Origin: a virus
Reading direction: 5' to 3' (one strand)
Virus record (IMG/VR): IMGVR_UViG_3300032046_000032
Coordinates: 1-53,765 of that record
DNA: 53,765 nucleotides
In this document: positions 1,778-37,611 of the stretch, piece by piece
How the letters are laid out: the number at the start of each line of letters is the position of its first letter
How positions within the stretch are numbered: the stretch's first letter is position 1
The notes under the pieces: model-generated
Told to the model about the DNA's origin: nothing
Database searches by the model: none
The model's input: the letters and a program-made list of their open reading frames with translations, nothing else
Translations under genes and position numbers: made by a program

Positions 1778-4680
1778 CAGTTCGTCCTGCTAGCGCTGGA
1801 GAATTGCAGTACTTTAGAACTGACGGTCAACACAGTCAGTTGTATTTGGCGTTTCCCCAACCAGCAATAGTGTTCAGAGCTAAGGTTAACAGCCCTGTAG
1901 GTCCTACCAGTCCCGCTGCCCTCGTTAAGGACATGATTGTTAGCGTGCCGTATGACTCAGTTACGTTTGGCGCTCACGCGGATATAATCCCTAATATGAC
2001 TTTGTTAGTAGGCTCAGACTACGGCATGCATGATCTGGGGATAGCACGAATACGCAAAGCCGCTTCGAGCACTATGCTGCATATTGGCGAGACGTCTGAA
2101 GTGAGATTTGCAGACAACGTGTACCTGACCGTTATCGACGAATACGGGCTGTGGCCGCGTCATAAGTTTGTTCAGTCAGGGACAGAGCATATTGACTATA
2201 TGGACCGGGACATAGTGTACATTGATCAACACAAGTTCCTGGACCCTGTGCCTGTGTTGGGGCCTGATCGGGTACTATTCTATCAAGGGACCCTGGGGGG
2301 AGCTAATACCATAGCTGCCACCATGGATGGCTCTGGATCGTATTGCCTAGGCTCGTCTATTAGCGCTTATTCATGGGCGGCACCGGGAGCATCAGCTACT
2401 GGCGGGTTGAATACTGCAACACCTACGCTCACGTATAACGCCCCAGGCACATATCGCATAACCTGTCTGGTTACTGCAGCGAACGGCAAGAGTTTCACCG
2501 GCCGCCGCGTTATAGTAGTATACGACGATACTGCTCCGCCCGTCAGCGACTTCAAACTCCTGTCTTGCAGGGGAGACTACCAGGAGGGTGGTTGGAGCTT
2601 CAAAGTAGCTATGTACGACAACGCGACTCTGTCTCTAGTTCGGGATAGAGCTCAGGTGATCCTGTTTGCACGAGACTGGTATGGCAATACAGAGATTAGC
2701 ATCGGCCCAATCCCGCAATGCGAAAACATCATAGCCAACGGTTGGATAGACAAAGAAGACCTGGAGCTAGACATCGATGGCGGGACTGCATCGTTCACTG
2801 CTTACGGGCCTAACCACTGGCTCAACCAAATGGAAGGCTTTATCTCTGGTTTACGACACAGTGAAACCGCTCCAACTGAATGGAACTACATGCTAGACCT
2901 GACAATCGATAAAGGTTTGTGGGATTTACTTCACTGGAAGGCGACCGCTACTGTGATGATGGATATCATACTGACAGGCAATCCTCAGCTGGTGCCCACC
3001 ATGGAGTCGGCGTCAATAGGCTCGTTATGGGAACAACTGACAGGCATGGCAAATACTACGATACTGGCTACTGCGTGCTGCGATCGCTACGGGCGACTGT
3101 TCGTCGAAGTTAACGGTCAGTATGTCCCGATAGCCGAAAGAGCATTTGTCAACGTAATGACTGTCGAGTCATACGACCGTGCGGGTGAAATAGAACTTGA
3201 ACGCGTGACCGTCAGACCAGTTAGCACGATTGATCTCTCAGGCGTATGGTTCAACGGGGTAACTGGGTACGCGATAAGAGCACTGGCTAGCGGCCATGTT
3301 ATGGACAGGTACGGTAGAGTAGAAATAATAGACAAGCTAATCATAGAAGACCAGGCACATTGCTGCGAGCTAGCCGCACGCGTCCTAGCCCACCGCCGCA
3401 ATGAATATCCCCGTATGAGTATTGAGCTAGCTAGCAACATGCGGTTGATAGACGTATGCCCTCAGCAGCAGTTGTTCATAACAACTGCTACTGACATGAA
3501 CCCACGTGAGACTGCTGTCAGCAATGACGTGTTCGTAAGAAGCGTAGCGTTCGTGCTCGACGATAAAAACAAAAGTATATCGGTCGAAGTTGAAGGGGAA
3601 CCCGAGACCACCGAAATAGTCAACTCAGTCCCAGGTGATATACCTATCATCGTTCCATTCGTGTACCCATTCCCCGTCTGGCCAATTCCACCATTCCCAC
3701 CTATTCCACCTATTCCACCTCCTCCACCTCCTCCACCTCCTCCGCCGCCCATTCCATCAGAAGAATGCCTAGACGGAGCATATCCGACCGGCCCGTTTCC
3801 ATCTACTTGGGATAGACGATGGATTGATGGGAACCCACTAACTCCCGAAACTCACAAAACTCGTATGTGGCTGCCATGCTGGCTGCGGTCAGCGTACGCG
3901 GACTATGACTCGCGTGTTGAGTTCTCTATCGGAAATAAGGGACTCGCCTACCAACACCTGCATCTCTACGGCATTGACGCAAGCGGGGCACGAGTTGCTA
4001 CCGGAATTGTCAGTGTAGTCACATACACAGAAGACTTCAAGACATTTTTCATGCGGGCTATTTTCGCCCTCGCTAGTGCTGTCGCAGTAGCTGGATTCGA
4101 ACTAGAGATTGACGAAGGGTTCGACAGTGAAGGGGCGACAATAGAGGAACCTACCTATGGAATCTGGGAAGAAGAGTATGGCAATTCTTGGGTTACGATT
4201 ACAACACCCGCTGAATGCACCCTAATTGGTGAAAACGGAGCAATGTTTTATTGGGGCGGTGACACTTATGGCTGGGGCGTGCTCTGGGGAGACGCGTACT
4301 ACCAGGCGAGAATTCACCTGAACGTTCATTTCGCTGTAGTGGCAGGACAGCACTCTAAGATATGGATGTTTGTAAATCTTATGGTCACTGGAGGAGTAGA
4401 TGGAATAGGCGGCGACGGCATTCCACTCGGCCCCAACTACGGCCCAGGAGTTGGTAACTGGGCATACTATGGTCCCGAGCACGCTTTCTTAGAGTTTATA
4501 GGAGGTGATAGTATCGACGCTAGTTGGTATGCAGGTTCTTCGCAAACTATGTTCGACAATCCGTGTACTCGGGATGCCGTTGTACACGTCGAAGGTGCAT
4601 TGATACTAATGGCGTCAGACTTACAGCCGATCGTCCGCTCTGCAGGTCTCGGCTACGTTGCCGTCTTTAACATTTGTTGA
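1774..4680 (+). CDS. Large tail protein (baseplate/tail-tip candidate) with PKD-like domain and polyproline hinge
   Basis: 968 residues from GTG 1774, overlapping the previous stop. The N-terminal third has an Ig/PKD-like module at about residues 170-255 (ending PGTYRITCLVTAANGKSFTG then a RRVIVVYDD strand). A middle region follows (about 255-610) resembling the folded part of tail-tip proteins. At about residues 625-665 a very proline-rich linker of repeated Pro-Ile and Pro runs separates a C-terminal lectin-like part rich in Trp, Tyr and Gly. Position after the distal tail gene fits a tail-tip or Tal-like hub protein carrying an adhesin. No peptidase motif is evident. The CCACCT-type repeats in the linker are prone to length change. 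Confidence 0.6.
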   Translation: MTVRPASAGELQYFRTDGQHSQLYLAFPQPAIVFRAKVNSPVGPTSPAALVKDMIVSVPYDSVTFGAHADIIPNMTLLVGSDYGMHDLGIARIRKAASSTMLHIGETSEVRFADNVYLTVIDEYGLWPRHKFVQSGTEHIDYMDRDIVYIDQHKFLDPVPVLGPDRVLFYQGTLGGANTIAATMDGSGSYCLGSSISAYSWAAPGASATGGLNTATPTLTYNAPGTYRITCLVTAANGKSFTGRRVIVVYDDTAPPVSDFKLLSCRGDYQEGGWSFKVAMYDNATLSLVRDRAQVILFARDWYGNTEISIGPIPQCENIIANGWIDKEDLELDIDGGTASFTAYGPNHWLNQMEGFISGLRHSETAPTEWNYMLDLTIDKGLWDLLHWKATATVMMDIILTGNPQLVPTMESASIGSLWEQLTGMANTTILATACCDRYGRLFVEVNGQYVPIAERAFVNVMTVESYDRAGEIELERVTVRPVSTIDLSGVWFNGVTGYAIRALASGHVMDRYGRVEIIDKLIIEDQAHCCELAARVLAHRRNEYPRMSIELASNMRLIDVCPQQQLFITTATDMNPRETAVSNDVFVRSVAFVLDDKNKSISVEVEGEPETTEIVNSVPGDIPIIVPFVYPFPVWPIPPFPPIPPIPPPPPPPPPPPPIPSEECLDGAYPTGPFPSTWDRRWIDGNPLTPETHKTRMWLPCWLRSAYADYDSRVEFSIGNKGLAYQHLHLYGIDASGARVATGIVSVVTYTEDFKTFFMRAIFALASAVAVAGFELEIDEGFDSEGATIEEPTYGIWEEEYGNSWVTITTPAECTLIGENGAMFYWGGDTYGWGVLWGDAYYQARIHLNVHFAVVAGQHSKIWMFVNLMVTGGVDGIGGDGIPLGPNYGPGVGNWAYYGPEHAFLEFIGGDSIDASWYAGSSQTMFDNPCTRDAVVHVEGALILMASDLQPIVRSAGLGYVAVFNIC

Positions 4681-13718: not shown

Positions 13719-13930
13719 TGGTGCTCCTTTCTCCATATTATGATTGTTCGAATGTTAAAGCATATCAAAACGACTTGTAGGCTAACTACAGCCCAGGACG
13801 TGGGTGTGATGGTCAAAGCCCAAGTCATAAAGACAACGCTGGACACCATGTACACATACATCGCGGCCATGCGATGGCGCGCCAGCAACCATGTACCTAC
13901 TAAGCTTAATCCCGCGCCGAGCCAGTCCAT
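13715..13930 (-). CDS. Small membrane protein (PnuC-like fold resemblance)
   Basis: 71 residues with three hydrophobic segments (about 3-18, 24-42 and 44-62) ending IRTIIIWRKEHQ. The pattern WLGAGLSLVGTWLLARHR and VSLQVVLICFNIRTI resembles a half-size PnuC-type vitamin transporter. It lies between queE and folE with stop/start overlaps on both sides, so a role in precursor uptake is possible but only inferred from position. Confidence 0.6.
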   Translation of the reverse strand: MDWLGAGLSLVGTWLLARHRMAAMYVYMVSSVVFMTWALTITPTSWAVVSLQVVLICFNIRTIIIWRKEHQ

Positions 13931-14571
13931 TACTTCACACCGATCCTAAACTGTAATCTGTCGCCGTAGCGCCAGTCGGGATGTTTGTTAAGCCAGGATA
14001 GCGCCTTTACAATATGCTCCTGCGAAGGCGGCGTGCCCTCAGGCATCAAGGTACATATAGGGGCTCTTCGTGACACCACGGCAACCTCCTGCATAACCTT
14101 CTCAACGAGGTGCACGTCAAGGATGTCGTCCACAACCCACTTGACCTCAAAAGCCTGTACTTGGATGTCCTTCGGAGCGGCATACTTAAGGCGCTCCTTC
14201 GGGGACCAAGTTATAAAGTCCGGAGTGCGAACGCCTTTCAGCGAGTTCTGTCCCGATGTCTCGAGCTGAATGCGAAAGTCGTGGCTCCACAAAGATTGAC
14301 CTGCGTCACGAAGTTCGACGAACAACTTGTCGAGGTCGTATAGCGTAGGTTCGCCGCCTGTCACGACCACCAAAGGTCTAATAGGCTTGCAGGTGGCAAG
14401 TATCTCGTCGACTGTCATTTGCTTGCCACCTTTAGTCCAGGTGTACTTGGTGTCACACCATGTACAGCCTACGGAACATCCTTGGAGACGGATAAAGGTT
14501 GCAGGTGTGCCTGCTAGTACACCTTCTCCTTGGATTGACTGGAATATTTCGTTCACGGAATACGTAGTCAT
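13930..14571 (-). CDS. queE: 7-carboxy-7-deazaguanine synthase (radical SAM)
   Basis: 213 residues from ATG 14571, which has AGGAGG four bases upstream. Radical SAM cluster motif is GCSVGCTWCDTKYTW (CxxxCxxC type, with the QueE-typical extra spacing), preceded by FQSIQGEGVLAGTPATFIRL and followed by VVVTGGEPTLYDL, LETSGQ and FRIQ strands. It converts 6-carboxy-tetrahydropterin to 7-carboxy-7-deazaguanine. A pseudoknot-like RNA abuts its ribosome binding site (see separate entry). Confidence 0.95.
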   Translation of the reverse strand: MTTYSVNEIFQSIQGEGVLAGTPATFIRLQGCSVGCTWCDTKYTWTKGGKQMTVDEILATCKPIRPLVVVTGGEPTLYDLDKLFVELRDAGQSLWSHDFRIQLETSGQNSLKGVRTPDFITWSPKERLKYAAPKDIQVQAFEVKWVVDDILDVHLVEKVMQEVAVVSRRAPICTLMPEGTPPSQEHIVKALSWLNKHPDWRYGDRLQFRIGVK

Positions 14572-14575
14572 AAGG

Positions 14576-14625
14576 CCTCCTGGGGGCAAGCAGGTACTGC
14601 CTCGCCCCTGTGTAAGTGCACCTGC
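14576..14625 (-). promoter_or_regulatory. H-type pseudoknot abutting queE ribosome binding site
   Basis: On the minus strand, GCAGGT (14625-14620) pairs with ACCTGC (14595-14590), and GGGGC (14608-14604), inside that loop, pairs with GCCCC (14587-14583). This is a classical crossed pseudoknot. Its last strand touches AGGAGG at 14581-14576, and its first base is the last base of the upstream TAG stop. Ribosomes finishing the upstream gene would unfold it, so coupling or a translational switch is plausible. Confidence 0.55.
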
Positions 14626-14993
14626 TACTTCTTCAGTGGCACAGTCTCGAACTTGATTTGCGGAACCTTCGGCGCGTCAGGATTGACGTGCGTCTCCAAC
14701 AGCTCGTCTTTCCAGTTCGCAATAGCATTACCGTCCTTGTCGACATCGCGGCGTTGGAGATACAGCTTCGGATTGCGAAGAATCGGTCGGATAGGCAAGA
14801 TGTGGTTCTTCGAATAAGCGGCAATGCTTGCGCTCACTGAAGCGGGTTTCCGACCGATCTCGCTACTGTCAACTTCGGCCATGAAGAAGCCAGTGTTCAG
14901 GAAGGCCGTAACGATCGGTCCGATCACGCCACCGCGTGAAGACAGGACGCCTTGCGCTTCAACGGCGTCTGGATCAACCTGCAGGAATTTCAT
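14625..14993 (-). CDS. Hypothetical protein between endonuclease and queE
   Basis: 122 residues, unrecognised. The N-terminal half has a hydrophobic strand-helix pattern (GGVIGPIVTAFLNTGFFMAEVD); the C-terminal half is Lys/Pro-rich (NPDAPKVPQIKFETVPLKK). The ribosome binding site is GAAGGAACAAA before ATG 14993. Its stop forms the start of the queE leader pseudoknot. Position inside the que cluster hints at a DNA-modification link but nothing in the sequence proves it. Confidence 0.6.
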   Translation of the reverse strand: MKFLQVDPDAVEAQGVLSSRGGVIGPIVTAFLNTGFFMAEVDSSEIGRKPASVSASIAAYSKNHILPIRPILRNPKLYLQRRDVDKDGNAIANWKDELLETHVNPDAPKVPQIKFETVPLKK

Positions 14994-15036
14994 TTTGTTC
15001 CTTCTCTTTCTCTAGATAATCGATAGCCAGTTTGCA

Positions 15037-15426
15037 CTAGCTAGGGTGGTTCGCCGCTTGTATCATGCCGGCGAGTTCATAACGACGAGCAACCCAATCG
15101 GCTGGAATGGGATGTCCCGAAGTACCCATAAGATTGGTCATTTCGAGCGCCCAGAGGGCACGTTGCTTCTTAACGACTAAGAAAGGCAGAATAGAGCTCA
15201 GGATCTCAGCGGCCTTCTTACCGCCCCACTTGAGATTAGTAACCCTACTACCGCCAGGATGCATCGTGCCGCCATGCATCTGTTGGATAGCCTTGAGGAT
15301 GGTTTGATCGTTCTGCGAGATGACTACTGAAGGCATCGGCACCGAACTCGTTCTATCTACCGTCACGCACCCTTCGCCCTCGAAGAATCCTGCAATCCAT
15401 TCATCAGTAATATGGTACTCAGGCAT
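15037..15426 (-). CDS. LAGLIDADG homing endonuclease (single motif)
   Basis: 129 residues from ATG 15426. The catalytic helix is WIAGFFEGEGCVTVDR at residues about 9-24, followed by PSVVISQNDQTILKAIQQ and AAEILSSILPFLVVKKQRAL, standard for single-motif homodimeric enzymes. It sits as a free-standing gene, its start overlapping the previous gene by 8 bases with AGGAGG inside that gene. Such enzymes spread themselves by cutting DNA lacking the insertion. Confidence 0.85.
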   Translation of the reverse strand: MPEYHITDEWIAGFFEGEGCVTVDRTSSVPMPSVVISQNDQTILKAIQQMHGGTMHPGGSRVTNLKWGGKKAAEILSSILPFLVVKKQRALWALEMTNLMGTSGHPIPADWVARRYELAGMIQAANHPS

Positions 15427-15679
15427 GCTCCTCCTTTTTAAGGTAATCAATGGCTAACTGTGCGTAACCCTGTATGTCACGCCAGCCGTCAACCTTAGCT
15501 GGGTTGCCTAACAACCGGATGGCTTTGTTAAAGACCATCACTAGTGGGAACCATAGCGCAGGGAAGGCCTTGTGCAAGTTCAGTAACGGTTCCCAGAACT
15601 GCTGTAAGAACTCACCCGTGGTACGCCAGGCGTCTGCGTATTCGGCGTTACGCTCTTCAACGAGCTTCTTAACGTCCAT
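15419..15679 (-). CDS. Conserved phage protein, Nmad1/MazG-like resemblance
   Basis: 86 residues from ATG 15679 (AGGAGGTGCTG upstream). The pattern KLVEERNAEYADAWRTTG, VFNKAIRLLGNP, DGWRDIQGYAQLAIDYLKK resembles all-alpha phage proteins distantly like MazG pyrophosphohydrolases or Nmad1 (nucleotide modification associated). The Glu-rich metal site is not complete, so an enzymatic role is uncertain. Confidence 0.55.
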   Translation of the reverse strand: MDVKKLVEERNAEYADAWRTTGEFLQQFWEPLLNLHKAFPALWFPLVMVFNKAIRLLGNPAKVDGWRDIQGYAQLAIDYLKKEEHA

Positions 15680-15689
15680 CAGCACCTCC

Positions 15690-15992
15690 TTATCCTTGCC
15701 GCAGGTACGCGGCAGCTTTCTCAAGTAAGATAGGGTCATCCTGAAAGAGGCCGATAGCCGTATTACAGGCAGGACAGAGAAGACTACGTATAGCTCCTGT
15801 ACCATGATCGTGATCGACTACGAACTGCTTCCTAAAGTACGACTGGTCGCGACCGCAGATCGCGCACTTGCCATTCTGCTTAATAAACAGTGCAGTATAC
15901 TCGTCGGGTGTAATCCCATACAATCGTTTGAGATTCGACCGCCGGTGAGCAGCTCGCCCTTGAGGTGTCTTGTAATACGGCTTCTTGGTCAT
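15690..15992 (-). CDS. HNH endonuclease, recombination endonuclease VII family
   Basis: 100 residues. YGITPDEYTALFIKQNGKCAIC-type start, zinc cysteines CAICGR and CPACN, the DHDHGTGAIRSLLC active-site strand and FQDDPILLEKAAAYL tail match the endonuclease VII family. It may act as a junction or homing endonuclease. Its ATG overlaps the queD stop (ATGA) and it ends 11 bases before the next start. Confidence 0.88.
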   Translation of the reverse strand: MTKKPYYKTPQGRAAHRRSNLKRLYGITPDEYTALFIKQNGKCAICGRDQSYFRKQFVVDHDHGTGAIRSLLCPACNTAIGLFQDDPILLEKAAAYLRQG

Positions 15993-16432
15993 TCAGCCTC
16001 GTATACGTACGTAGCAGTACTCTTTGGTGTTTCATTTACAGTGATGACAAGTTCGTTGCGGGCACATCCATATATTGTAGCCCGTAAATCCGTGAAGACT
16101 TCGTGCCACAGAAACCTAGCGAGAAACTCGGCTGTTGATGCAGGCGCGTCTAGCAGGAACGCGTCGCCGCGTGCCTGCGCCACCACCGCGTAAGGGTCGA
16201 GGGCATTATGGTTACTTCGTGACACGATGTACCGATGGTCGATCGAGTCAACAATTGGCTTCACAATTTTGTCCAGTTCACCGTAATCGATGAGCATCCC
16301 ATCTCCCGGAAGGATCTTGCCAGCGTACGCGACGACGACTTCGTAATTATGGCCGTGGAGCCGGCCACATTTGGGGTGACCCTCAATTCGGTGAGCTGCA
16401 CAGAATGAATACTTACGTGTTATCGTGTACAT
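15989..16432 (-). CDS. queD: 6-carboxy-5,6,7,8-tetrahydropterin synthase
   Basis: 147 residues from ATG 16432 (GGAGG five bases upstream), sharing one base with the queC stop (TAATG). Zinc histidines are in FCAAHRI and GRLHGHNYEV, with the catalytic Cys in HPKCGRLHGH; MLIDYGELDKIVKPIVDSIDHRYI and PASTAEFLARFL complete the family pattern. It converts the FolE product to 6-carboxytetrahydropterin. Confidence 0.93.
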   Translation of the reverse strand: MYTITRKYSFCAAHRIEGHPKCGRLHGHNYEVVVAYAGKILPGDGMLIDYGELDKIVKPIVDSIDHRYIVSRSNHNALDPYAVVAQARGDAFLLDAPASTAEFLARFLWHEVFTDLRATIYGCARNELVITVNETPKSTATYVYEAE

Positions 16433-17166
16433 TAGAGCCTCCACATTTTCCTAACGCAGCCATCCCAGTCAACAGGAACGCGGTACGGAACAGGGTCGAC
16501 GACACCATTATGCTTGAACGCTTCGATACGCTCGATGCAAGTTGGACACTCGCCGCACTGTAAGTAACCTCCGTTGCTAATGCCTACAGGTGAGTAGCAA
16601 GACCACGTTAGATGAAGAGGCGCCCACAGCTCCAACGCGCGCTTACAAACGTCAGCCTTCGACATCCAGATAAACGGGAACAGCAGGCGAACTTCATGAT
16701 ACGAGCCGACATAGACTGCGTTCGCCATGGCCCCGAGGAATTCCGGCGTGCAGTCCGGGTAAGCAAAATTATGGGCATCTTCCCCGTGCATACCGGCGTA
16801 GACGTACTGCGCCTTATGCGTGATGGCAATCGTTGTCGCGATGCTCAGCAGGTTCGCGTTACGGAAAGGGGCAACTGTGGGTGACGGTCCCACCGCTTGA
16901 CCCATCTCTTGATAGGTCAAGTGGGGCATCGTACCTTCGCCCATCAGAGCGGAGTTAGCACCCGTGAAGATACGTGGCAGTTCGACAACGACGTGTTCAG
17001 CATGGAACCATTCTGCAAGTTCCTTCGCAGCGTTCATCTCAGCCTGTTGATGTAAGCTACCGTAGCCTGCTGTTACGGCAACAAGTTCGTTGCAACCGTC
17101 TGCTCGTGCTTGTTCTGCGACGGTGCAAGAATCCATGCCGCCAGAAAGTAATACAATTGCCTTCAT
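16432..17166 (-). CDS. queC: 7-cyano-7-deazaguanine synthase
   Basis: 244 residues from ATG 17166 (AAAGGAGCTCT upstream). The N-type PP-loop SGGMDSCT is at residues about 8-15; zinc cysteines are in SCYSP and LQCGECPTCIER near the C-terminus. It makes preQ0 from 7-carboxy-7-deazaguanine, ATP and ammonia. There is no glutamine amidotransferase extension. The reading frame stays open another 80 codons upstream into the HNH gene, but there is no ribosome binding site supporting a longer protein. Confidence 0.94.
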   Translation of the reverse strand: MKAIVLLSGGMDSCTVAEQARADGCNELVAVTAGYGSLHQQAEMNAAKELAEWFHAEHVVVELPRIFTGANSALMGEGTMPHLTYQEMGQAVGPSPTVAPFRNANLLSIATTIAITHKAQYVYAGMHGEDAHNFAYPDCTPEFLGAMANAVYVGSYHEVRLLFPFIWMSKADVCKRALELWAPLHLTWSCYSPVGISNGGYLQCGECPTCIERIEAFKHNGVVDPVPYRVPVDWDGCVRKMWRL

Positions 17167-17311
17167 AGAGCTCCTTTCTTTGGTAGTTAGTGAAAGTGTT
17201 ACTTGTACACTCGGTGTCATAGCTGCGGACACAAACGTCGGAGTTTCGAACATCAGAACCTCACTAGTTGAGCGTCGCAGAGACATGGGATATGCGGTTG
17301 TCAGACAGATG

Positions 17312-17668
17312 TCATTCATCGCTTGCCCGGCCTCTACGGCGCTCAAGTTGTTGCACCAACTTCTTTTCATGTTCGACGATGCGATGACAGTTAGCGCATA
17401 AGACATCGCACTTCGGGAGTTCTTCTTTTAGCATGTCAAAGCCTATCCGCCACCAGTCCGATATCGGTACGATCTTCTCAGTCGGGTCAGTATGATGCAT
17501 CTCAAGGACAATTGGATTCCGTTCACCACATCGGCGACATCCTCGTTCAGCTTTGTAATCAAGTAGCCACTGCCGACGCTTCTCAACCGATTTGGCGTGC
17601 GACGCCTTACGGGCACGTCGGTGCTCCACCTGATCTTCCGCATAATACACCTGGTCACTATAAGTCAT
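17312..17668 (-). CDS. HNH endonuclease
   Basis: 118 residues. A basic N-terminal helix is followed by CRRCGERNPIVLEMHHTDP, where HH is the HNH catalytic pair, then LPKCDVLCANCHRIVEHEKK with the second zinc pair and final His. It sits between the primase-helicase (TAATG overlap) and queC, and is probably a free-standing homing-type nuclease. The 145 bases after its stop carry no separate gene I can support. Confidence 0.88.
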   Translation of the reverse strand: MTYSDQVYYAEDQVEHRRARKASHAKSVEKRRQWLLDYKAERGCRRCGERNPIVLEMHHTDPTEKIVPISDWWRIGFDMLKEELPKCDVLCANCHRIVEHEKKLVQQLERRRGRASDE

Positions 17669-20067
17669 TAGAACCTCACAATGAAGACTCTATCAGGAAC
17701 CTTCGTTGGGATATCTAATCCAGCGTCAACGGCCTTTTGTAGGTCTATGCCGTACATCCAACTGTCGTTCATTACCATCGGCACCACTGAATACGGCGCT
17801 TCCTTCAGCTGTGCTCTTATAGCGTCCCTCTCAAGTGCTCCCCGGCCTTGACGTCGACGTGAACTAACCCAATAGGAATGTGCTGGTGCAAGCTGGAACC
17901 AAAACGTATTATCTTCTGCTCGCAGGACGCAATTGAAGTTACCTGAGCCCTGCGCTATTGCATTAACTATATCTTCAACCATCGAGTCTGCTAACGTAGC
18001 TGCACGTCCGGACTTAATATTGAACACTGAGCTGATGCTCTCTTCTAACGCCGTCGGTGCTGGCAACGGCGTGTCGGTCACTTGACACCAAAGCATCATA
18101 CCGAAATATGCGACGATGTGATTAGCTCTCACACGGTCGGGAAGCTTCGTTGGGTATGTCGCGAAGACCGCTGCGCGGGCTTCGGCAAGTATTGCTTGCC
18201 ACTCAGGCTCTAGCCCTAACACCTGTTGGATGTAGTAGCCACCGAAGTTAGGCGGCATCTTATCACGTAGCTCTTGAAAAGCGTTGTACGCACTCGAGTC
18301 TTCTGCAATGGCATTTGGATGCAGCTGTGCGACAACTAGCCGCTCACGTGCCGCGGGGTCGGCGATAAGGTCTTCCCCATCGACACTAAAAGGTGCAGAC
18401 AGCGGGTAATCAACTGTCGTCTGATCGCCTCTACCGCGGGCATCATGCCCTGTGTCGTACGCTAGTAGGATCGTCCTAAGCAACCGCTCCACTAGCTCAT
18501 AGCGAAATTCGCTGAACGCGATAGGCACGGCGTTGGATGAACCTAACAAAGCAAGCGTGACAAACCTTGTTGTCCCGGCGTCGTACGTCTTCGGATCCAC
18601 CTGGCCTAGGAGTGGCAGGAATACCCGCTGGATTAGCGTCGTCTTGCCTGAACCTTTTGTCCCTGCGACGTTTAGTATAGGGAACCGGTAGTGGTGTTCC
18701 TCTAACCATGGCTTTAAGGTACTCGCAGCGTACCATCCAATCATCGGCCATATTGTAGTCTCCTCGTTTAACTTTGGTACAAGTTCTTTGATGAGCTTGA
18801 GCTCCGTCTTGCTTAGCTCTGGAACCAAAGCTAAGTCGGGATGTTCCTTCTGTACAGGAAGCCAGCAAACCGGACCGTCATGCCCTTGCCAAATCTCCTT
18901 CGCGCTGACAACTTGCTTGTTACCGAGGAACAGCCACGTGTCATGTATCTTGTGTAAACCAAGCACCGATGTAGCGCCGACTTTAGGGAGCCCCGCCCCC
19001 CTAAGTATATCAAGAAGGTACGGGAGGAGAGCTCGTATGTCATCGTCATGGCCCAACCACTGCCATGCGGCAACAGGCGCTTCTCTATCAAACCTACGGA
19101 CGGACGTAAATGCGGAGCGAGAAAACGTAATACCTGGCCAAGTGTACCCGGCAGCATGTACATCTCCAACAATCGCATCTTCGGCTCCAAACTTAGATCC
19201 GTCCAGTAAGACGGTCGGCGCAATTGTAAAGGTGCTGAGGCGCTTAGTCCCTCGTTTTGTGTTGACGATGTATCCATCTTCGGACTCCTCGATCTCACTA
19301 GCCGAAGCAACAGCTAACGTACTTGGGGCTTTCGCCCTAACTTGTCCTATTGTCTGCTGCAGATATACGCTGTTCTCACTTGACTTATCACCGCAAGGTT
19401 GCCCAGCAAAAATAACTCGAATGAGGTCGTCACTGGAGCCACACCGTACAAGCTGTCCAACGACCGCCCAGTCACGCTCACTACGAGACCTGTAACCTCG
19501 ACTATCTCCGGTTCGAATCTTATGCCGTGTCTTATTGTCCAGTCCTGCAACAACCTCAATATCGGCAGAGCTGTAGCGTCTCTCGGGCTGATAGAGCTCC
19601 AAACGAACGCGAACATGCGGTTCCTCCTTCTTGTTCAGAGTGCCTGAGACTCTAAGCACTCTGTTTGCGTTCCAACAGGCCTTGTCTGCAGTCGCTACAT
19701 CCTCTATCATAATCTTGTTCAGGGTCTCTAAAGGCTCAACACCGAGTACCGGAGTATCTAGAAACCAGTATACATGCCAACCGTGACCCGAGAATACTGT
19801 AGCAGAAGGCGGAAGCGTGCACAAAGGCTTTTGTGCGTCATCAACGTCTACCCACAAAGTTGCTGACCCAAGGACATCTGTCTTCTCCGTACCAGCAGTC
19901 GATCGCATCGCAGGGCCGAAGTAAACATCCTTATCGCCTGGTATCTCAAGAGTGATAAGCTCTTCAGGTGTGTAGTACTTAGTAAAAGCAGGCAACGGCT
20001 TATCTATTGCAATAGCCATTAGCCCACCGAACGCGAGCTGTTTTAGGAACTCAAGAGATGCATCCAT
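17668..20067 (-). CDS. Primase-helicase (AEP-type primase plus P-loop ATPase)
   Basis: 799 residues. An archaeo-eukaryotic primase-like N-terminal domain carries ATLWVDVDDAQ (metal-binding acids, about residue 72) and FSGHGWHVYWFLDTP (about 92-106, the sGxGxHxYW signature). The C-terminal helicase has Walker A NVAGTKGSGKTTL near residue 467 and AFSEFRYELVERL downstream. It would prime and unwind at the phage fork beside the fused polymerase. ATG 20067 has no clear ribosome binding site; the leader instead carries one arm of a 22-bp inverted repeat. Confidence 0.85.
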   Translation of the reverse strand: MDASLEFLKQLAFGGLMAIAIDKPLPAFTKYYTPEELITLEIPGDKDVYFGPAMRSTAGTEKTDVLGSATLWVDVDDAQKPLCTLPPSATVFSGHGWHVYWFLDTPVLGVEPLETLNKIMIEDVATADKACWNANRVLRVSGTLNKKEEPHVRVRLELYQPERRYSSADIEVVAGLDNKTRHKIRTGDSRGYRSRSERDWAVVGQLVRCGSSDDLIRVIFAGQPCGDKSSENSVYLQQTIGQVRAKAPSTLAVASASEIEESEDGYIVNTKRGTKRLSTFTIAPTVLLDGSKFGAEDAIVGDVHAAGYTWPGITFSRSAFTSVRRFDREAPVAAWQWLGHDDDIRALLPYLLDILRGAGLPKVGATSVLGLHKIHDTWLFLGNKQVVSAKEIWQGHDGPVCWLPVQKEHPDLALVPELSKTELKLIKELVPKLNEETTIWPMIGWYAASTLKPWLEEHHYRFPILNVAGTKGSGKTTLIQRVFLPLLGQVDPKTYDAGTTRFVTLALLGSSNAVPIAFSEFRYELVERLLRTILLAYDTGHDARGRGDQTTVDYPLSAPFSVDGEDLIADPAARERLVVAQLHPNAIAEDSSAYNAFQELRDKMPPNFGGYYIQQVLGLEPEWQAILAEARAAVFATYPTKLPDRVRANHIVAYFGMMLWCQVTDTPLPAPTALEESISSVFNIKSGRAATLADSMVEDIVNAIAQGSGNFNCVLRAEDNTFWFQLAPAHSYWVSSRRRQGRGALERDAIRAQLKEAPYSVVPMVMNDSWMYGIDLQKAVDAGLDIPTKVPDRVFIVRF

Positions 20068-20089
20068 GGATTTAATTGAGCGGAGCAGC
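20068..20089 (+). repeat. Left arm of 22-bp inverted repeat around the DUF669 gene
   Basis: This matches the reverse complement of 20534-20555 with one mismatch in 22 bp (the adjacent bases 20067/20556 also match). It lies immediately upstream of the primase-helicase ATG and replaces the expected ribosome binding site. Confidence 0.9.
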
Positions 20090-20091
20090 AG

Positions 20092-20112
20092 TTCGCTAGC
20101 TCTGCTAGCGAA
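20092..20112 (-). promoter_or_regulatory. Hairpin across the DUF669 stop codon
   Basis: A perfect 9-bp stem TTCGCTAGC / GCTAGCGAA with a 3-base loop. The TAG stop of the DUF669-like gene is in the stem. There is no T-run, so it is more likely an RNA-processing or translation element than a terminator. Confidence 0.7.
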
Positions 20113-20497
20113 TTAGGGTGATCTTCTTGATGCGGTTGCGTGGTGGGTAGGGCTCGCCAGTCTCCGGGTCGACCCCGCTGCCGGGTTGAATGTCGACGGT
20201 GATCTTGGCGGTCTTGCCGACGAGCTGCTCGGGCCTAACCTCACCCTTGAACTTCTTGTCGAAGCCCAACGCAATCAGGGTTGCTTTGACGCGGAACTCA
20301 GCCTTCGCGGTGAAGGTCAAGGTGTCAAATACGATGCGGCCGTCGAGAGGGCCGCCGTCGACCTTCCATTGAAGGTCGATCTTTTCATTGCCAGCCTTGG
20401 ACTCGCCTGTTTCCGCCTTAACGATGGAAGCTGTATAGGTACCAACAGGTAGAGGCTCAAGGCCCTGAACTTTACTGAAGTCAATCGCAGGTGCCAT
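20105..20497 (-). CDS. DUF669-like protein, probable ssDNA-binding factor
   Basis: 130 residues. GLEPLPVGTYTASIVKAETG, NEKIDLQWKVDGGPLDGRIV and the Lys-rich NRIKKITLIR end follow the DUF669 pattern found beside RecA-like ATPases in phages, where an OB-like ssDNA-binding role is supposed. The ribosome binding site is AAGGAGACTGACAC. The gene is bracketed by an inverted repeat (20068-20089, 20534-20555). Confidence 0.75.
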   Translation of the reverse strand: MAPAIDFSKVQGLEPLPVGTYTASIVKAETGESKAGNEKIDLQWKVDGGPLDGRIVFDTLTFTAKAEFRVKATLIALGFDKKFKGEVRPEQLVGKTAKITVDIQPGSGVDPETGEPYPPRNRIKKITLIR

Positions 20498-20530
20498 GTG
20501 TCAGTCTCCTTGTGTCTTGTGTCTGGGTGA

Positions 20531-21328
20531 TTAGCTGCTCCGCTCAATCAAATCCAGGATACTCGACATTGTGGGGTTGATTATGTGGCCAACGCCACAC
20601 ATATACTGGTCCTTAGCATAAGATGATTTCGTTGGTAGTACCTGCCCGACGTTGAAGACGTCTTCGCCGAAGACGGCAGTGTCGGTAGCCTTGATATCAC
20701 CATCTACGCGGGCCTGTACGGTGAGACGCATTACGAGTAACGCGTAACCGCATAACTCCAGACCCGATTGACCCCAGATAAGAGGCTCGTAGTGGAAGAT
20801 TTGCTTCTCGTCCTGTTTCCAGGACTCATGACAGTTAAAGATGACGTTGAGACTGTGGGGCGGCTGCGTGAGATCAAGCATCTTCCTTGACCAATGCATC
20901 ATAGTGCCTAGTAACTTACCGAAGCCTTGTCGACCCAGATCGCCCACTAGCGTCCCGGGCTCCGAGTTGAGTGAGCCGTTGATAATGGACGCGATGAACC
21001 GTTGTACTTCGGTCGTACTGTCAATAAAGACAGTCTTGTATGGAGGACTGAGCCGCATCTCTTTAGCATAGCGGTCTTTAGGTTCCTGCCCGTCCATCAG
21101 CCAACGGTAAGGCTCGTTAAAGTCTTCCATAACCTCTAAGGTTATGATGTCCGGCTTGACAGCGCGTTTGCGTAGGGCCTGTGGATTGCCGTATGCGTTC
21201 AAGTCAAGCACTCGGCCGAAACGTGCATCATCGCACGCGGTGGCCAGAAGTGTAGTCTTGCCGCAACCAGGCTGACCGTAGATAAGGATCTTCAGACCCT
21301 CGTCTTCCTCACTGAAACGTTTAGCCAT
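20531..21328 (-). CDS. RecA-like phage ATPase (AAA_24/Sak4-like)
   Basis: 265 residues. Walker A is ILIYGQPGCGKTTLLATACD (residues about 14-33) and Walker B-like strand is YKTVFIDSTTEVQRF. This organisation matches the short RecA-like ATPases (AAA_24, some called Sak4) that work with a DUF669 partner and a Cas4-like nuclease in phage recombination; all three are adjacent here. The C-terminal codons form one arm of the inverted repeat. Confidence 0.82.
   Translation of the reverse strand: MAKRFSEEDEGLKILIYGQPGCGKTTLLATACDDARFGRVLDLNAYGNPQALRKRAVKPDIITLEVMEDFNEPYRWLMDGQEPKDRYAKEMRLSPPYKTVFIDSTTEVQRFIASIINGSLNSEPGTLVGDLGRQGFGKLLGTMMHWSRKMLDLTQPPHSLNVIFNCHESWKQDEKQIFHYEPLIWGQSGLELCGYALLVMRLTVQARVDGDIKATDTAVFGEDVFNVGQVLPTKSSYAKDQYMCGVGHIINPTMSSILDLIERSS
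20534..20555 (-). repeat. Right arm of 22-bp inverted repeat around the DUF669 gene
   Basis: It encodes the last residues of the RecA-like ATPase (DLIERSS). Together with 20068-20089 it brackets the whole DUF669-like gene. Confidence 0.9.
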
Positions 21329-24874: not shown

Positions 24875-24947
24875 TAGCGGGGGGTGGACTCGAACCACCG
24901 ACCTCCTGGTTATGAGCCAGGCGAGCTGACCGCTGCTCTACCCCGCA
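24875..24947 (-). tRNA. tRNA with CAU anticodon (Met or modified Ile)
   Basis: Minus strand cloverleaf: acceptor GCGGGG/CCCCGC with a U1-U72 terminal mismatch, D-stem GAGC/GCTC, anticodon stem CCTGG/CCAGG with loop CTCATAA (CAU at 24914-24912), T-arm GGTGG-TTCGAGT-CCACC. A73 is followed by CCT, not CCA, so CCA must be added. The anticodon stem lacks the three G-C pairs of an initiator and the T-loop is elongator-type. An Ile-CAU identity is possible. Confidence 0.9.
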
Positions 24948-33799: not shown

Positions 33800-33851
33800 T
33801 GCTTCTCTCCTTTCTATATAGGTTCCAAGCAGTATGGTAGCTTGATAAATA

Positions 33852-33890
33852 ATTATAACATGGCTCCTATGATTTACATAAGGGTCATTG
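33852..33890 (-). promoter_or_regulatory. Early promoter (CAATGACCC family)
   Basis: Minus strand: CAATGACCC, -35 TTATGT (33881-33876), 18-bp spacer, -10 TATAAT (33857-33852). Leader hairpin CAAGC/GCTTG. Confidence 0.92.
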
Positions 33891-33912
33891 AACGGATCAC
33901 TTTATTGATCCG

Positions 33913-34101
33913 TTATATGCCTACCATCTTGCCGAAGCCTGTATGCTGGCGCTCGGTCTCAATGCGCCATTCGTCTAGGATTTCGTCAACTTGAACCCAG
34001 TCGCCGTCGATATCGTACTGATCGCGCATCCAAAGTGCAATCAGCTTGTTGCCGAGCTTAGCGAGGGCCCAGGCAATCTTGCTCTTTAGCCGTGCCTTCA
34101 T
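33913..34101 (-). CDS. Small hypothetical protein
   Basis: 62 residues: a basic amphipathic N-terminal helix (MKARLKSKIAWALAKLGNKL), then an acidic part QYDIDGDWVQVDEILDEWRI. The ribosome binding site is AAAGGAGAGACGCA after TGAAC/GTTCA copy 3. Not recognised. Confidence 0.65.
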   Translation of the reverse strand: MKARLKSKIAWALAKLGNKLIALWMRDQYDIDGDWVQVDEILDEWRIETERQHTGFGKMVGI

Positions 34102-34126
34102 TGCGTCTCTCCTTTGCTACTGCAGC

Positions 34127-34179
34127 TGAACGGCTGCATGATGAGATGCACTAGCGGTGGTGCTAGTGCATCTGGTTCA
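34127..34179 (-). promoter_or_regulatory. TGAAC/GTTCA leader element, copy 3
   Basis: Outer TGAAC (34179-34175) with GTTCA (34131-34127); inner perfect 12-bp stem AGATGCACTAGC/GCTAGTGCATCT. Confidence 0.85.
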
Positions 34180-34187
34180 CGCATCTG

Positions 34188-34595
34188 TTACATGCAAGTG
34201 TACTCCGCATCATCGTGATATTCGCAATCGATGTCGCCGAAGCTCACGAGCAGGGCGCTGATCTTATGTTCCCATTTATCAACGAGCTCTGCAGTGAACT
34301 TATCAGGGTCCTTCGCAACGATCTTGATACCGCGGATATCTTCGCCATCGATCTCTGCATCGCGGTAGTGTCCTGCGATCATGTCGTGGAGCTCGTATTC
34401 ATCGATCTGAACAATGTTCTTCATATCATCGAGCCACTTATACGGCTCGGCTCCTTCGACGACGGCTTCGATATCGACTGCCTGTATCTGTGCGTCGGAG
34501 ACCTTCGCAACGGCTTCGATGCATGCGCGCTGCAGCTTCGTTACATCATCTGCTGAGCACGTTTCCATGGCTAACGTTACCTTGATCTGAATCAT
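34188..34595 (-). CDS. Hypothetical acidic protein
   Basis: 135 residues from ATG 34595 (AAAGGAGGCATAAC). MIQIKVTLAMETCSADDVTK is related in pattern to the start of 33323. Acidic with DEYELHDMIAGHYRDAEID, ending CEYHDDAEYTCM. Function unknown; acidic early proteins can mimic DNA but this is not shown here. Confidence 0.65.
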   Translation of the reverse strand: MIQIKVTLAMETCSADDVTKLQRACIEAVAKVSDAQIQAVDIEAVVEGAEPYKWLDDMKNIVQIDEYELHDMIAGHYRDAEIDGEDIRGIKIVAKDPDKFTAELVDKWEHKISALLVSFGDIDCEYHDDAEYTCM

Positions 34596-34652
34596 GTTAT
34601 GCCTCCTTTCATATAATATCGATTTCAAGCAGCATGATAGCTTGATAAAATA

Positions 34653-34691
34653 ATTATAACATGGCTCATATGATCTACATAAGGGTCATTG
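34653..34691 (-). promoter_or_regulatory. Early promoter (CAATGACCC family)
   Basis: Minus strand: CAATGACCC, -35 TTATGT (34682-34677), 18-bp spacer, -10 TATAAT (34658-34653). Leader hairpin TCAAGC/GCTTGA. Confidence 0.92.
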
Positions 34692-34702
34692 ATATGAGCA
34701 AC

Positions 34703-35296
34703 TTATTGGTCGCTCTCCAGGCTAATCTCGAATGCGTTACGATCAGCTTCAGGGCCTAGCGGTACCTCTACGGTTGCGGGTACGGCTCTCGGCGCTAAAG
34801 CGTCGAGAGGCTTACGCCAGATCCATGGATTGTCGTATCCAATGCTGACTTCAGGGTATCCTGCTGCGTTGACGCTGGTACCTTCGACATACAGCCCTGC
34901 GATTGCGACTAGCTCGAAGCCTGCGGCGAATGCATGGCGTACATGGTTTACATGCAACGTACCGCAGCCCTTTACCGTGAGCAGGGCACCAGGCTTCAGG
35001 ACCCTGTATACTTCAGCGTACGCGGCTCTGAAGTCGTTATCCCCTGCATCTGATTCTAGGAAACAGCTGCCGAGCGCTTCGCTGAAATGGTCGCTCGGCA
35101 TCTCAGGCATACGCGCGTAGTCGCCAACGTAATTATACGTTACGCCGTCGCCGGATACGCTGCCATCATCGGATATAGAAATAGCGTCTTCGGCTTCGTA
35201 GCATGCCGTGCCGCCGAGATCCAGTTTATGGTACTGGGCCATGTTACGCGGTAACTTATGCGTCGCGTAACGTTCGCCATCCTTTCTACGTCTCAT
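34703..35296 (-). CDS. SAM methyltransferase-like protein with truncated N-terminus
   Basis: 197 residues from ATG 35296 (AAGGAGAGAAGCG). The C-terminal half has the class I methyltransferase post-core pattern AAYAEVYRVLKPGALLTVKG and a following strand FELVAIAGLYVEG. Motif I is reduced to HKLDLGGTACYEAED, without the GxGxG loop. Either a degenerate methyltransferase or one with an unusual SAM site. The substrate is unknown. Confidence 0.6.
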   Translation of the reverse strand: MRRRKDGERYATHKLPRNMAQYHKLDLGGTACYEAEDAISISDDGSVSGDGVTYNYVGDYARMPEMPSDHFSEALGSCFLESDAGDNDFRAAYAEVYRVLKPGALLTVKGCGTLHVNHVRHAFAAGFELVAIAGLYVEGTSVNAAGYPEVSIGYDNPWIWRKPLDALAPRAVPATVEVPLGPEADRNAFEISLESDQ

Positions 35297-35355
35297 CGCT
35301 TCTCTCCTTATATATAGGTTCCAGGCAGATGGATGCCTGGTTTTATTATATAATA

Positions 35356-35394
35356 ATTATAATACGGATCCTATGTTTTACGTAAGGGTCATTG
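35356..35394 (-). promoter_or_regulatory. Early promoter (CAATGACCC family)
   Basis: Minus strand: CAATGACCC, -35 TTACGT (35385-35380), 18-bp spacer, -10 TATAAT (35361-35356). Leader hairpin CCAGGC/GCCTGG. Confidence 0.92.
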
Positions 35395-35426
35395 ATGCGA
35401 TCGGTTAATTGATAACATATCATTGG

Positions 35427-35708
35427 TTACCGCCGCTTGGCTTCCTTCTCTAGATCCAATCCTTTGATGCAATCGATGCAATGGAACTCGTATTCATGGG
35501 GCCACTGCAGCCGGCTCATGCGACCGTAATCAAGCGGCAGCAACTGTTGACAGCATGGGCATCTGAAGCAAGGACACGCTGTATCCTTGGCTCTCTGCAA
35601 CGCGAGCCGTCGCAAGACGACCGGGTTCTTTATCTGTCTGCCTTTGCTCGTATCCCAATCGTCCGGCATTGATGGCCATATCTTATACCGTAGCTGGTTC
35701 CTATTCAT
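35427..35708 (-). CDS. Zinc-binding hypothetical protein
   Basis: 93 residues. Cys pairs CPCFRCPCCQQLL and FHCIDCIKGL with a basic N-terminus (MNRNQLRYKIWPSMPDDWDT). A probable zinc ribbon. The ribosome binding site is AGGAGCTTATCAT. Confidence 0.65.
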   Translation of the reverse strand: MNRNQLRYKIWPSMPDDWDTSKGRQIKNPVVLRRLALQRAKDTACPCFRCPCCQQLLPLDYGRMSRLQWPHEYEFHCIDCIKGLDLEKEAKRR

Positions 35709-35751
35709 ATGATAAGCTCCTGGTTACGTTAGATATGTGGTTCATAATATA

Positions 35752-35790
35752 ATTATAATCTGGATCCTATGTTTTCTACAAGGGTCATTG
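35752..35790 (-). promoter_or_regulatory. Early promoter (CAATGACCC family)
   Basis: Minus strand: CAATGACCC, -35 TTGTAG (35781-35776), 18-bp spacer, -10 TATAAT (35757-35752). Confidence 0.92.
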
Positions 35791-35794
35791 AAGG

Positions 35795-36467
35795 GGGCAG
35801 TTTCAGGCAGACTGCTTGGGGACTTAGCCGAGTTGTTGATCAAATGATCAACAACTCTTCTCATATGCGGATTCTTACCAGGACATATATGTATAATACT
35901 TAATAATGAATATTATCTTCGATAATTATACCATTGATATGCATTACAGAATCATCAAGAGAAAAACATAGATTATTATAATTGATTATCATTATATTGT
36001 ATACTTAAGTACCCTGTTAGGGTACTTGAGCATCCTGCTTAGGACTTACGCTAGGGGTGTTGCCACGGTGGACGGGGGTAGGGAGAGGGGACGGTGAAAG
36101 AGCTCCCGTGTCACAAGCAAGCACCCCGCATTTTACCCCAGCCCCAGCCGCAGTTCGTACGTCTGCAGCCACGCCCGGCGGCATGCAACAGAGCGCAATG
36201 CGACTGGAAGAAGATATAATGGCCCAGTACAGTCACATGGCGGGGAGCCTGAGGGTCGATCGGGATCCAAGATCAGGGCGCATACTTTCCGCTAGACGGC
36301 CACCTAGCGGGCAGCCGCGGTCGTAGGTCATACATAGCTCTGAAACTGGTCACAGATTTTTACCATCTGCCGGGTGCCATGCGGTTCGCCTGACGCCCAA
36401 CGCTGCGCGGCGCCAAGGCCCTGTGCTGTGGTAGCGTGGCTTCGGATGCGGTCGCGGAGACTGGATC
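35795..36467. other. Non-coding pivot region: AT-rich DNA and palindromes (origin candidate)
   Basis: No gene is supported here. It contains an 11-bp-arm palindrome GTTGTTGATCA/TGATCAACAAC (35832-35855), a strongly AT-rich stretch (about 35880-36005) and a 9-bp-arm inverted repeat AAGTACCCT/AGGGTACTT (36007-36027). A GC-rich part follows (36050-36460) whose longest open frame, 36057-36326, has a TTG start and no ribosome binding site. This is the obvious place for an origin or control site; that is inference. Confidence 0.5.
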
Positions 36468-36674
36468 TTATGATTTGTTCCTGTTACTTATCGCGGCGTC
36501 TGACGAATATGTAAGGAACAGATGATAATCATCCATGATCTGTGCATCGGTCATCGTATCGTAGGCGACGTCCTCTCCTGTATCGATGACTCCCGAGATG
36601 TACTCCTCGACCATATCCGCGGCGATATCGTTGGCTACGAGGATCTTTCTGATCCGTGCTAAGCGCTTATCCAT
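36468..36674 (-). CDS. Small hypothetical protein
   Basis: 68 residues from ATG 36674 (AGGAGAGAATCA). Acidic, helical: LARIRKILVANDIAADMVEE, DAQIMDDYHLFLTYSSDA. Leader hairpin GGATCCA/TGGATCC. Driven by promoter 36723-36752. Confidence 0.65.
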   Translation of the reverse strand: MDKRLARIRKILVANDIAADMVEEYISGVIDTGEDVAYDTMTDAQIMDDYHLFLTYSSDAAISNRNKS

Positions 36675-36722
36675 TGATTCTCTCCTAGGATCCACATACG
36701 ATGGATCCAGATTATATATATA

Positions 36723-36761
36723 ATTATAACAGGGATCCTAGGATTTTTACAAGGGTCCTTG
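36723..36761 (-). promoter_or_regulatory. Early promoter (CAAGGACCC variant)
   Basis: Minus strand: CAAGGACCC, -35 TTGTAA (36752-36747), 18-bp spacer, -10 TATAAT (36728-36723). Confidence 0.88.
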
Positions 36762-36817
36762 CGGGCATCACCTTCGTGCGGGGCGCCGTGGGGTACGGAT
36801 CAACAAAGAGATCCGAT

Positions 36818-36856
36818 CGATGACCCTTATGAAGATCATATGATCTGTATTATAAT
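36818..36856 (+). promoter_or_regulatory. Rightward early promoter, with palindromic spacer
   Basis: CGATGACCC, -35 TTATGA (36827-36832), 18-bp spacer containing the palindrome GATCATATGATC, -10 TATAAT (36851-36856). Leader hairpin GGTTACAT/ATGTAACC just before AAGGAG. Confidence 0.9.
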
Positions 36857-36901
36857 TATATATAATCAGGTTACATCGATATGTAACCAAGGAGCGAATC
36901 A

Positions 36902-37252
36902 ATGAACGTAGCATATCGTAAGGATCCAAGGATCGTATCGCATGACGATGCAGCCGCGATACATCAAGAGGTAGGGTACATAGATCCCGCAACCGGTATC
37001 GAAGTACCCTATGATCACTGTATCCGCGTATCGTTCGCGGAGCCGTTCGCCGCGTATAAGGTTCCAGGCGATGATCCAGCAGCTGCGGAGGGCTTGGCTC
37101 TCGAGATGTATGAACAGAGAGCCGATGAATACGAAGCCGCGAAGGTAGCTTACGAAGCGTTCGCGGTAACGGAGCTCGGCATCGAGCTCAAGGAGCCGTA
37201 CACCTTCGATTGGCGCGATGAACAGGAGCTCTGGATTCGATATAACGATTAG
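36902..37252 (+). CDS. Hypothetical protein, paralogue of 33323 C-terminal half
   Basis: 116 residues. RIVSHDDAAAIHQEVGY and the C-terminal FDWRDEQELWIRYND are shared with 33323 on the opposite strand; the N-terminal module of that protein is missing here. The ribosome binding site is AAGGAGCGAATCA. Function unknown. Confidence 0.65.
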   Translation: MNVAYRKDPRIVSHDDAAAIHQEVGYIDPATGIEVPYDHCIRVSFAEPFAAYKVPGDDPAAAEGLALEMYEQRADEYEAAKVAYEAFAVTELGIELKEPYTFDWRDEQELWIRYND

Positions 37253-37325
37253 GTAGCCGAAGATCCGATCTCCCCGAGCGGATCTCTGTTTGCTGCCTTG
37301 GCACCTCGCATTAAGTTGATTCGAT

Positions 37326-37364
37326 CAATGACCCTTATGTTGATCATATGATCCATATTATAAT
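37326..37364 (+). promoter_or_regulatory. Rightward early promoter, with palindromic spacer
   Basis: CAATGACCC, -35 TTATGT (37335-37340), 18-bp spacer containing GATCATATGATC, -10 TATAAT (37359-37364). Leader hairpin GGATACAT/ATGTATCC. It is a near duplicate of the 36818 promoter and leader. Confidence 0.92.
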
Positions 37365-37410
37365 TATATATAATAACGGATACATCGATATGTATCCAAG
37401 GAGAGAATCC

Positions 37411-37611
37411 ATGAGAGCGACAAAGGTACCAGGTACAAGGGCTCGGGAGCGAAGCCGCGTTACCATAGCGAGGGACCTCGGAAGCCGGATCAAGGCGTAC
37501 ATCGCGTTGTGTAGCTGCGGAGACCCCGCATGTGATACGTGCAAGGTCGGGGTCGCGATCGGGCTCAAGGCTCTGGATCGCGCGTTTACCGCCGGCGCTA
37601 AGAGCAAGTAA
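37411..37611 (+). CDS. Small basic Cys-containing protein
   Basis: 66 residues from ATG 37411 (AAGGAGAGAATCC). Basic N-terminus (MRATKVPGTRARERSRVTIA) and the Cys cluster CSCGDPACDTC, probably zinc binding. Function unknown. Confidence 0.65.
   Translation: MRATKVPGTRARERSRVTIARDLGSRIKAYIALCSCGDPACDTCKVGVAIGLKALDRAFTAGAKSK

Follow-up and report, generated by a model that had tools for sequence, protein, structure and literature searches.

Long-range pairings in mRNA that couple one gene to another are known from a few model cases, which were discovered by genetics. In such translational coupling the TIR of the downstream gene is paired within the upstream ORF and is opened by upstream translation (PMC10666635). 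The coat-replicase pair of MS2 is among the cases closest to the locus described here: a segment inside the upstream ORF pairs over a distance with the control region of the downstream replication gene; the two arms, at 1427-1433 and 1738-1744, are 7 nt long and about 300 nt apart, and the pairing is opened by ribosomes on the upstream gene (PMC11339067). A similar arrangement is found in rplJ-rplL of E. coli, where the downstream gene has its initiation region paired to the upstream ORF, whose translation unwinds it (Petersen 1989, as that work is cited in PMC10666635). Two further systems share a part of the architecture. In the S. aureus icaR mRNA, long-range pairing of the 5' and 3' UTRs at the Shine-Dalgarno region blocks initiation and forms a substrate for RNase III (PMC3868564), and the leader-trailer helix of rRNA is a long covarying helix that closes a large RNA segment in a loop (PMC10250234).

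The window, that is the whole stretch of 53,765 bases analysed here, is a 53.8-kb viral contig of an uncultured phage. Judging from its comparison among related phages, an inverted repeat in the replication gene block probably encodes an RNA helix that spans a long distance in the polycistronic mRNA of these genes and gates translation of the primase.

Results

The genes of the block all lie on the minus strand and follow each other in the mRNA as PDDEXK exonuclease, Sak4/RecA-like AAA_24 ATPase, DUF669/SSB-like gene and primase-helicase. The features, in mRNA order, are as follows.

22431-21340, minus strand: PDDEXK exonuclease.
20531-21328, minus strand: Sak4/RecA-like ATPase, the upstream gene, whose final 7-9 codons are the 5' arm (Pfam AAA_24, 3e-12; PHROG 124, Sak4-like ssDNA annealing protein, 1.3e-21).
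20534-20559 (core 20534-20556), minus strand: 5' arm of the helix, within the ATPase coding sequence up to the stop codon (repeat search, recoding test, covariation).
20506-20511, minus strand: AAGGAG, a strong Shine-Dalgarno that serves the DUF669/SSB gene and follows closely on the 5' arm (anti-SD energy -8.5 kcal/mol).
20105-20497, minus strand: DUF669/SSB-like gene, in the loop of the helix (Pfam DUF669, 1.1e-9; PHROG 378, ssDNA-binding protein, 1.3e-9).
20092-20112, minus strand: a small hairpin formed locally, TTCGCTAGC-AGA-GCTAGCGAA, which takes in the SSB stop codon and immediately precedes the 3' arm.
20064-20089 (core 20067-20089), minus strand: 3' arm, the primase ribosome-binding region and start codon, -22 to +3 from the A of the ATG (repeat search, RNA scoring; no Shine-Dalgarno).
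17668-20067, minus strand: primase-helicase, the downstream gene, with its start under the 3' arm (PHROG 10514, DNA primase, 1.3e-15).

At 17312-17668 there is also an HNH endonuclease ORF (PHROG 2255), the start of which overlaps the primase stop. A similar ORF precedes the primase in the relative L157 (L212), at 3935-4288, and being placed after the primase in one phage and before it in the other, the gene seems to move around the primase. The region 13930-17406 holds QueC (Pfam 8.9e-46) together with a QueD-like member of the 6-pyruvoyl-tetrahydropterin synthase family and a radical SAM protein that is QueE-like by eye, a cluster that likely represents a 7-deazaguanine pathway, perhaps with a role in DNA modification.

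The earlier note on this DNA had reported an inverted repeat with one mismatch, its right arm encoding the C-terminus of the ATPase and its left arm adjoining the primase ATG, and our repeat search of the window bore this out. The arms, at 20067-20089 and 20534-20556, are 23 nt long, 96% complementary and separated by 444 nt, and their sole mismatch becomes G.U in the mRNA sense; under RNA pairing rules the helix reaches 26 nt and then includes the primase start codon. The right arm (20534-20556) codes for the residues LDLIERSS, up to the stop codon. No further copy of either arm at up to 3 mismatches was found in the 53,765-base record (chance expectation 0.00), shuffled sequence yielded no copies either, and no inverted repeat of 18 nt or longer within 3 kb is stronger than the arm pair once the repeat-rich block at 33.8-37.4 kb is set aside. 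When the 3' end of the window ATPase was recoded synonymously, none of 2000 recodings attained the observed pairing. A chance origin of the repeat is ruled out by the copy-number expectation, by this recoding test and by the locus shuffles given below. The generic pattern GAGCGGAG-N430-460-CTCCGCTC had more than 100 matches in viral contigs, but it has 16 fixed bases, so most of these are expected by chance.

No Rfam 15 family matched the helix at or above its gathering threshold, the single match of the window being a tRNA gene on the minus strand (24875-24947, 65 bits). The SSB-primase spacer of the window has no predicted intrinsic terminator, in the sense of a compact hairpin followed by a U-run, and the reading of the spacer as a terminator was dropped on that account. 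The repeat-rich block itself (33816-37414) consists of imperfect, AT-rich repeats of 57-64 nt (TATAATTATAAT..GGATCCTATG..AAGGGTCATTGA), of which five share one orientation and two are inverted; they lie near the starts of short minus-strand ORFs and are divergent around 36.7-37.3 kb. The block looks like a repeated promoter/leader cassette.

Relatives of the locus were gathered from viral contigs by searches with three of its proteins (ATPase, primase and SSB), and in all 55 distinct loci scored the ATPase-SSB-primase order was intact and in one orientation. To search for the helix, the 3' end of the ATPase gene was scored for pairing without gaps to the SSB-primase spacer, each locus being set against 300 shuffles. 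Sixteen loci, the window included, had helices of 21-38 nt that were not matched by any shuffle, 15 of them in one group and the remaining one the distant L175. To the 15 was added L157 (L212), which has about 31 contiguous pairs and in which an inserted HNH ORF separates the arm from the primase; the helix group as used here is thus 16 loci, with L175 outside. In this group a helix of 25-38 nt joins the final ATPase codons to the ribosome-binding region of the primase and encloses the SSB gene. The remaining loci scored at background, except for L175 and the marginal L172, L198 and L236, whose weak helices were left out of the established set. The primases of the 15 relatives with the helix have an identity of 57-81%, and in the primase tree the 16 helix loci are separated from the others by a single supported branch and so form one clade. 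In the nearest full relative, L001, the ATPase of which is 74% identical, the repeat is found at the same place and differs from that of the window by a C-to-T change in one arm with the matching G-to-A change in the other. When about 4-5 kb around each helix were scanned, the helix ranked first for complementarity in 15 of 16 loci, and no other pair recurred. Primase relatives were absent from a collection of 84,980 species genomes, and 50,697 phage records gave only distant primase or ATPase matches (25-33% identity).

It had been proposed that the arms be compared in related phages, with relatives of the same gene order and no complementary arms counting against the pairing. Such relatives do exist, but only outside the helix clade; inside it the arms are present, conserved and covarying, in 16 of 16 loci. 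The distant L175 has a 14-bp perfect helix core on the primase start, with its 5' arm in the ATPase-SSB spacer, unlike the helix clade, and its helix may be of independent origin. In the likewise distant L236 the primase start may carry a perfect helix of 11 bp.

The arms of the 16 loci were aligned with one gap and then counted against the helix. Pairing was found in 90.0% of 431 cells, compared with 74.7% in shuffles and 32-42% when one arm was slid by 1-3 columns, a percentage that is biased towards the helix since the arms were excised with the helix as anchor. The two-sided changes and the recoding test are not affected by this anchoring in the same way. Among the 16 aligned arm pairs, 18 of the 27 base pairs had changed on both sides, and two-sided changes occupied 75 cells, against 21.3 in shuffles and 9-21 in slid arms, counts that come from related sequences and are not independent events. 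The covariation score was 0.556 versus 0.242 and was reached by none of 500 shuffles; RNAalifold recovered the same helix unprompted, and the mean pairing score was 55 for cognate arms and 28 for non-cognate ones. In folds of 767-847 nt the helix was part of the MFE structure in all 16 loci, with a mean pair probability of 0.80-1.00 and a cost of 14-38 kcal/mol for freeing the 3' arm. In each of the 16 species 0 or 1 of 300 synonymous recodings of the ATPase matched the real pairing: the codons that the ATPase uses are fitted to the partner arm. In L022 (L219) a small deletion shifts the C-terminal reading frame of the ATPase and the helix persists. Midway along the helix, alignment columns 17/52, one in each arm, fail to pair in 11 of the 15 sequences that have bases at this position, the usual combinations being A.C or A.A, and constitute a conserved mismatch inside the helix. 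The comparison shows a predicted helix that is maintained by compensatory change at the RNA level and that covers or abuts the primase start. The stem that the earlier note had drawn in the transcript, looping out the DUF669 gene and burying the primase start, is thereby strongly supported, with heavy covariation and 15 relatives that keep it.

That note had also offered an invertible segment, or a trace of past inversion or insertion, and dsDNA phages do carry invertible and recombination-type elements. Two nearly identical inverted arms flanking one gene would suit an element acting at the level of DNA, be it an invertible segment, a recombination or protein-binding site, or a scar of SSB insertion, but we regard any of these as extremely improbable. 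The SSB gene keeps the same place and orientation in 55 of 55 loci, so that both orientations were not met with among relatives, and no recombinase was detected by HMM among the five replication genes beside the arms. The arms diverge together from species to species, and their departures from Watson-Crick pairing favour G.U (28) over A.C (12), under a strand-symmetric scoring that treats the two alike. One helix pair is G.U in 12 of 16 loci and G-C in the other 4, which fits RNA and not DNA, where the arms would carry a fixed G opposite T in those 12 species. Single orientation and the G.U evidence together were the grounds for rejecting the invertible segment, the insertion scar and the DNA binding site as candidates.

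The position of the arms is as regular as their pairing. The 5' arm lies in the coding end of the ATPase in 16 of 16 helix-clade loci, and in 15 of 16 the 3' arm overlaps the ATG of the next ORF or ends at most 13 nt from it, a placement that fits a gate on the downstream gene. In L010 and L025 the 3' arm comes after the ATG, in the first codons, and in L157 the next ORF is the HNH endonuclease (PHROG match), which starts immediately behind the helix and has a 14-nt overlap with the start of the primase. The exception is L005, whose 3' arm ends 75 nt upstream of the assigned primase ATG.

That the window primase is without a Shine-Dalgarno, as first noticed by eye, was confirmed by its anti-SD energy of +1.7 kcal/mol; the SSB and ATPase genes have -8.5 and -10.2, respectively. 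The further statement that the repeat replaces the ribosome binding site holds in the sense that the arm lies where the Shine-Dalgarno should be. Across the helix clade the median energies are -9.8 (ATPase), -8.3 (SSB) and -3.2 kcal/mol (primase); the primases differ from the SSB genes at p = 5e-6, but from non-helix primases only marginally (p = 0.056), and weak Shine-Dalgarno-like bases occur in half of the primases of the clade.

Related phages that lack the helix often have a local GC hairpin in the SSB-primase spacer (18 of 25), followed by a T-run in 8 of 25, compared with 5 of 16 and 1 of 16, respectively, in the helix group. This suggests that the spacer may be a regulated point in both groups, a parallel that we infer from sequence. 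L001 has a hairpin at the same SSB-stop site as the window, with another sequence, and since such hairpins occur in 5 of 16 helix-clade loci they are not a constant part of the arrangement. It could be argued that the helix serves mainly mRNA stability or operon compaction, protecting the ends of the SSB mRNA or insulating SSB, without control of the primase: the arms close off the SSB gene exactly, and small hairpins flank its stop in those 5 of 16 loci. We consider this quite improbable, as such a role has no need for an arm on the primase start codon or inside the ATPase coding sequence, and it leaves the weak primase Shine-Dalgarno unexplained.

Discussion

In the mechanism that we propose, the 5' arm, made up of the last ATPase codons, would pair with the primase initiation region (the 3' arm), leaving the independently translated DUF669/SSB gene in the loop. 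While closed, the helix would keep ribosomes off the primase start, the primase having little or no Shine-Dalgarno; a ribosome arriving at the end of the ATPase gene would strip out the 5' arm, and the primase start, some 450 nt downstream, would open. Primase output would in this way be low and tied to ATPase translation, with SSB made freely from its own strong site. For the more specific form of the proposal, in which ribosomes completing the ATPase license the primase across an independently translated SSB gene looped out by a covarying helix of 25-38 nt, we put the chances at about even. Several points speak against gating. The helix is far longer than blocking requires (7 nt in MS2), and its length suits RNase III; the 3' arm of L005 stops 75 nt short of the assigned primase ATG; half of the helix-clade primases retain weak Shine-Dalgarno-like bases; and dense ribosome traffic could hold the helix permanently open.

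Any RNA helix of this length in a bacterium would be a likely RNase III substrate, and the leader-trailer stems of rRNA are RNase III targets. The main rival of gating, which we hold to be rather unlikely, is that host RNase III cuts the 25-38 nt helix, giving a separate SSB mRNA and new ends on the ATPase and primase mRNAs. The helices are mostly 25-32 nt with few mismatches, the size that this enzyme cuts, and a 3' end after SSB may be a goal shared with the many non-helix relatives that have a GC hairpin there, with its T-run in 8 of 25. However, the 5' arm lies in coding sequence in 16 of 16 loci, a placement that translational coupling requires and that would be costly for processing because a cut there removes the ATPase stop codon, and it is odd that this arm should be used when a noncoding spacer of at least 36 nt adjoins it. 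The constant feature is the position at the start codon and not the length. Double-stranded RNA of about two turns is present in the helix clade (25-38 nt) but not in L175 or L236, whose helices are just 14 and 11 bp, lengths below the typical RNase III substrate yet enough to block a start; in these two phages blocking is feasible and RNase III cutting unlikely, as the helices are too short. Our literature search found no report of phage RNase III processing involving SSB and primase. Pairing at a start region and cutting by RNase III do occur together in icaR (PMC3868564), and by analogy gating and cutting may both be at work here.

In a group of uncultured DNA phages, comparative sequence alone reveals a very long and strongly covarying helix within the replication operon. 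If the primase is indeed gated, the helix would be a simple means of obtaining unequal protein levels from one transcript, and the start of replication would be linked to recombinase synthesis. As a search rule, pairing may be sought between the ends of ORFs and the starts of genes further down.

Like MS2 and rplJ-rplL, the helix clade has one arm in a translated upstream ORF (16/16), the other at the downstream initiation region (15/16), and compensatory change between them (18/27 pairs). Coupling is proven in MS2, and here we infer it. MS2 is an RNA phage with arms of 7 nt, whereas the present helix, at 25-38 nt, belongs to an operon of a DNA phage, draws its 5' arm from the final codons of the upstream gene and holds a complete, separately translated gene in its loop. 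The rplJ-rplL pairing, in the account cited above, joins neighbouring genes; here coupling would skip a gene, from ATPase to primase across SSB. The icaR mRNA is monocistronic, pairs through a short UCCCC motif and has no ribosome-driven opening via an upstream ORF (PMC3868564), and the leader-trailer helix encloses rRNA and no coding gene, with arms neither in an ORF nor on a start codon. Compared with known coupling, what would be novel in this phage group is the length of the helix and the skipping of an intervening, independently translated gene.
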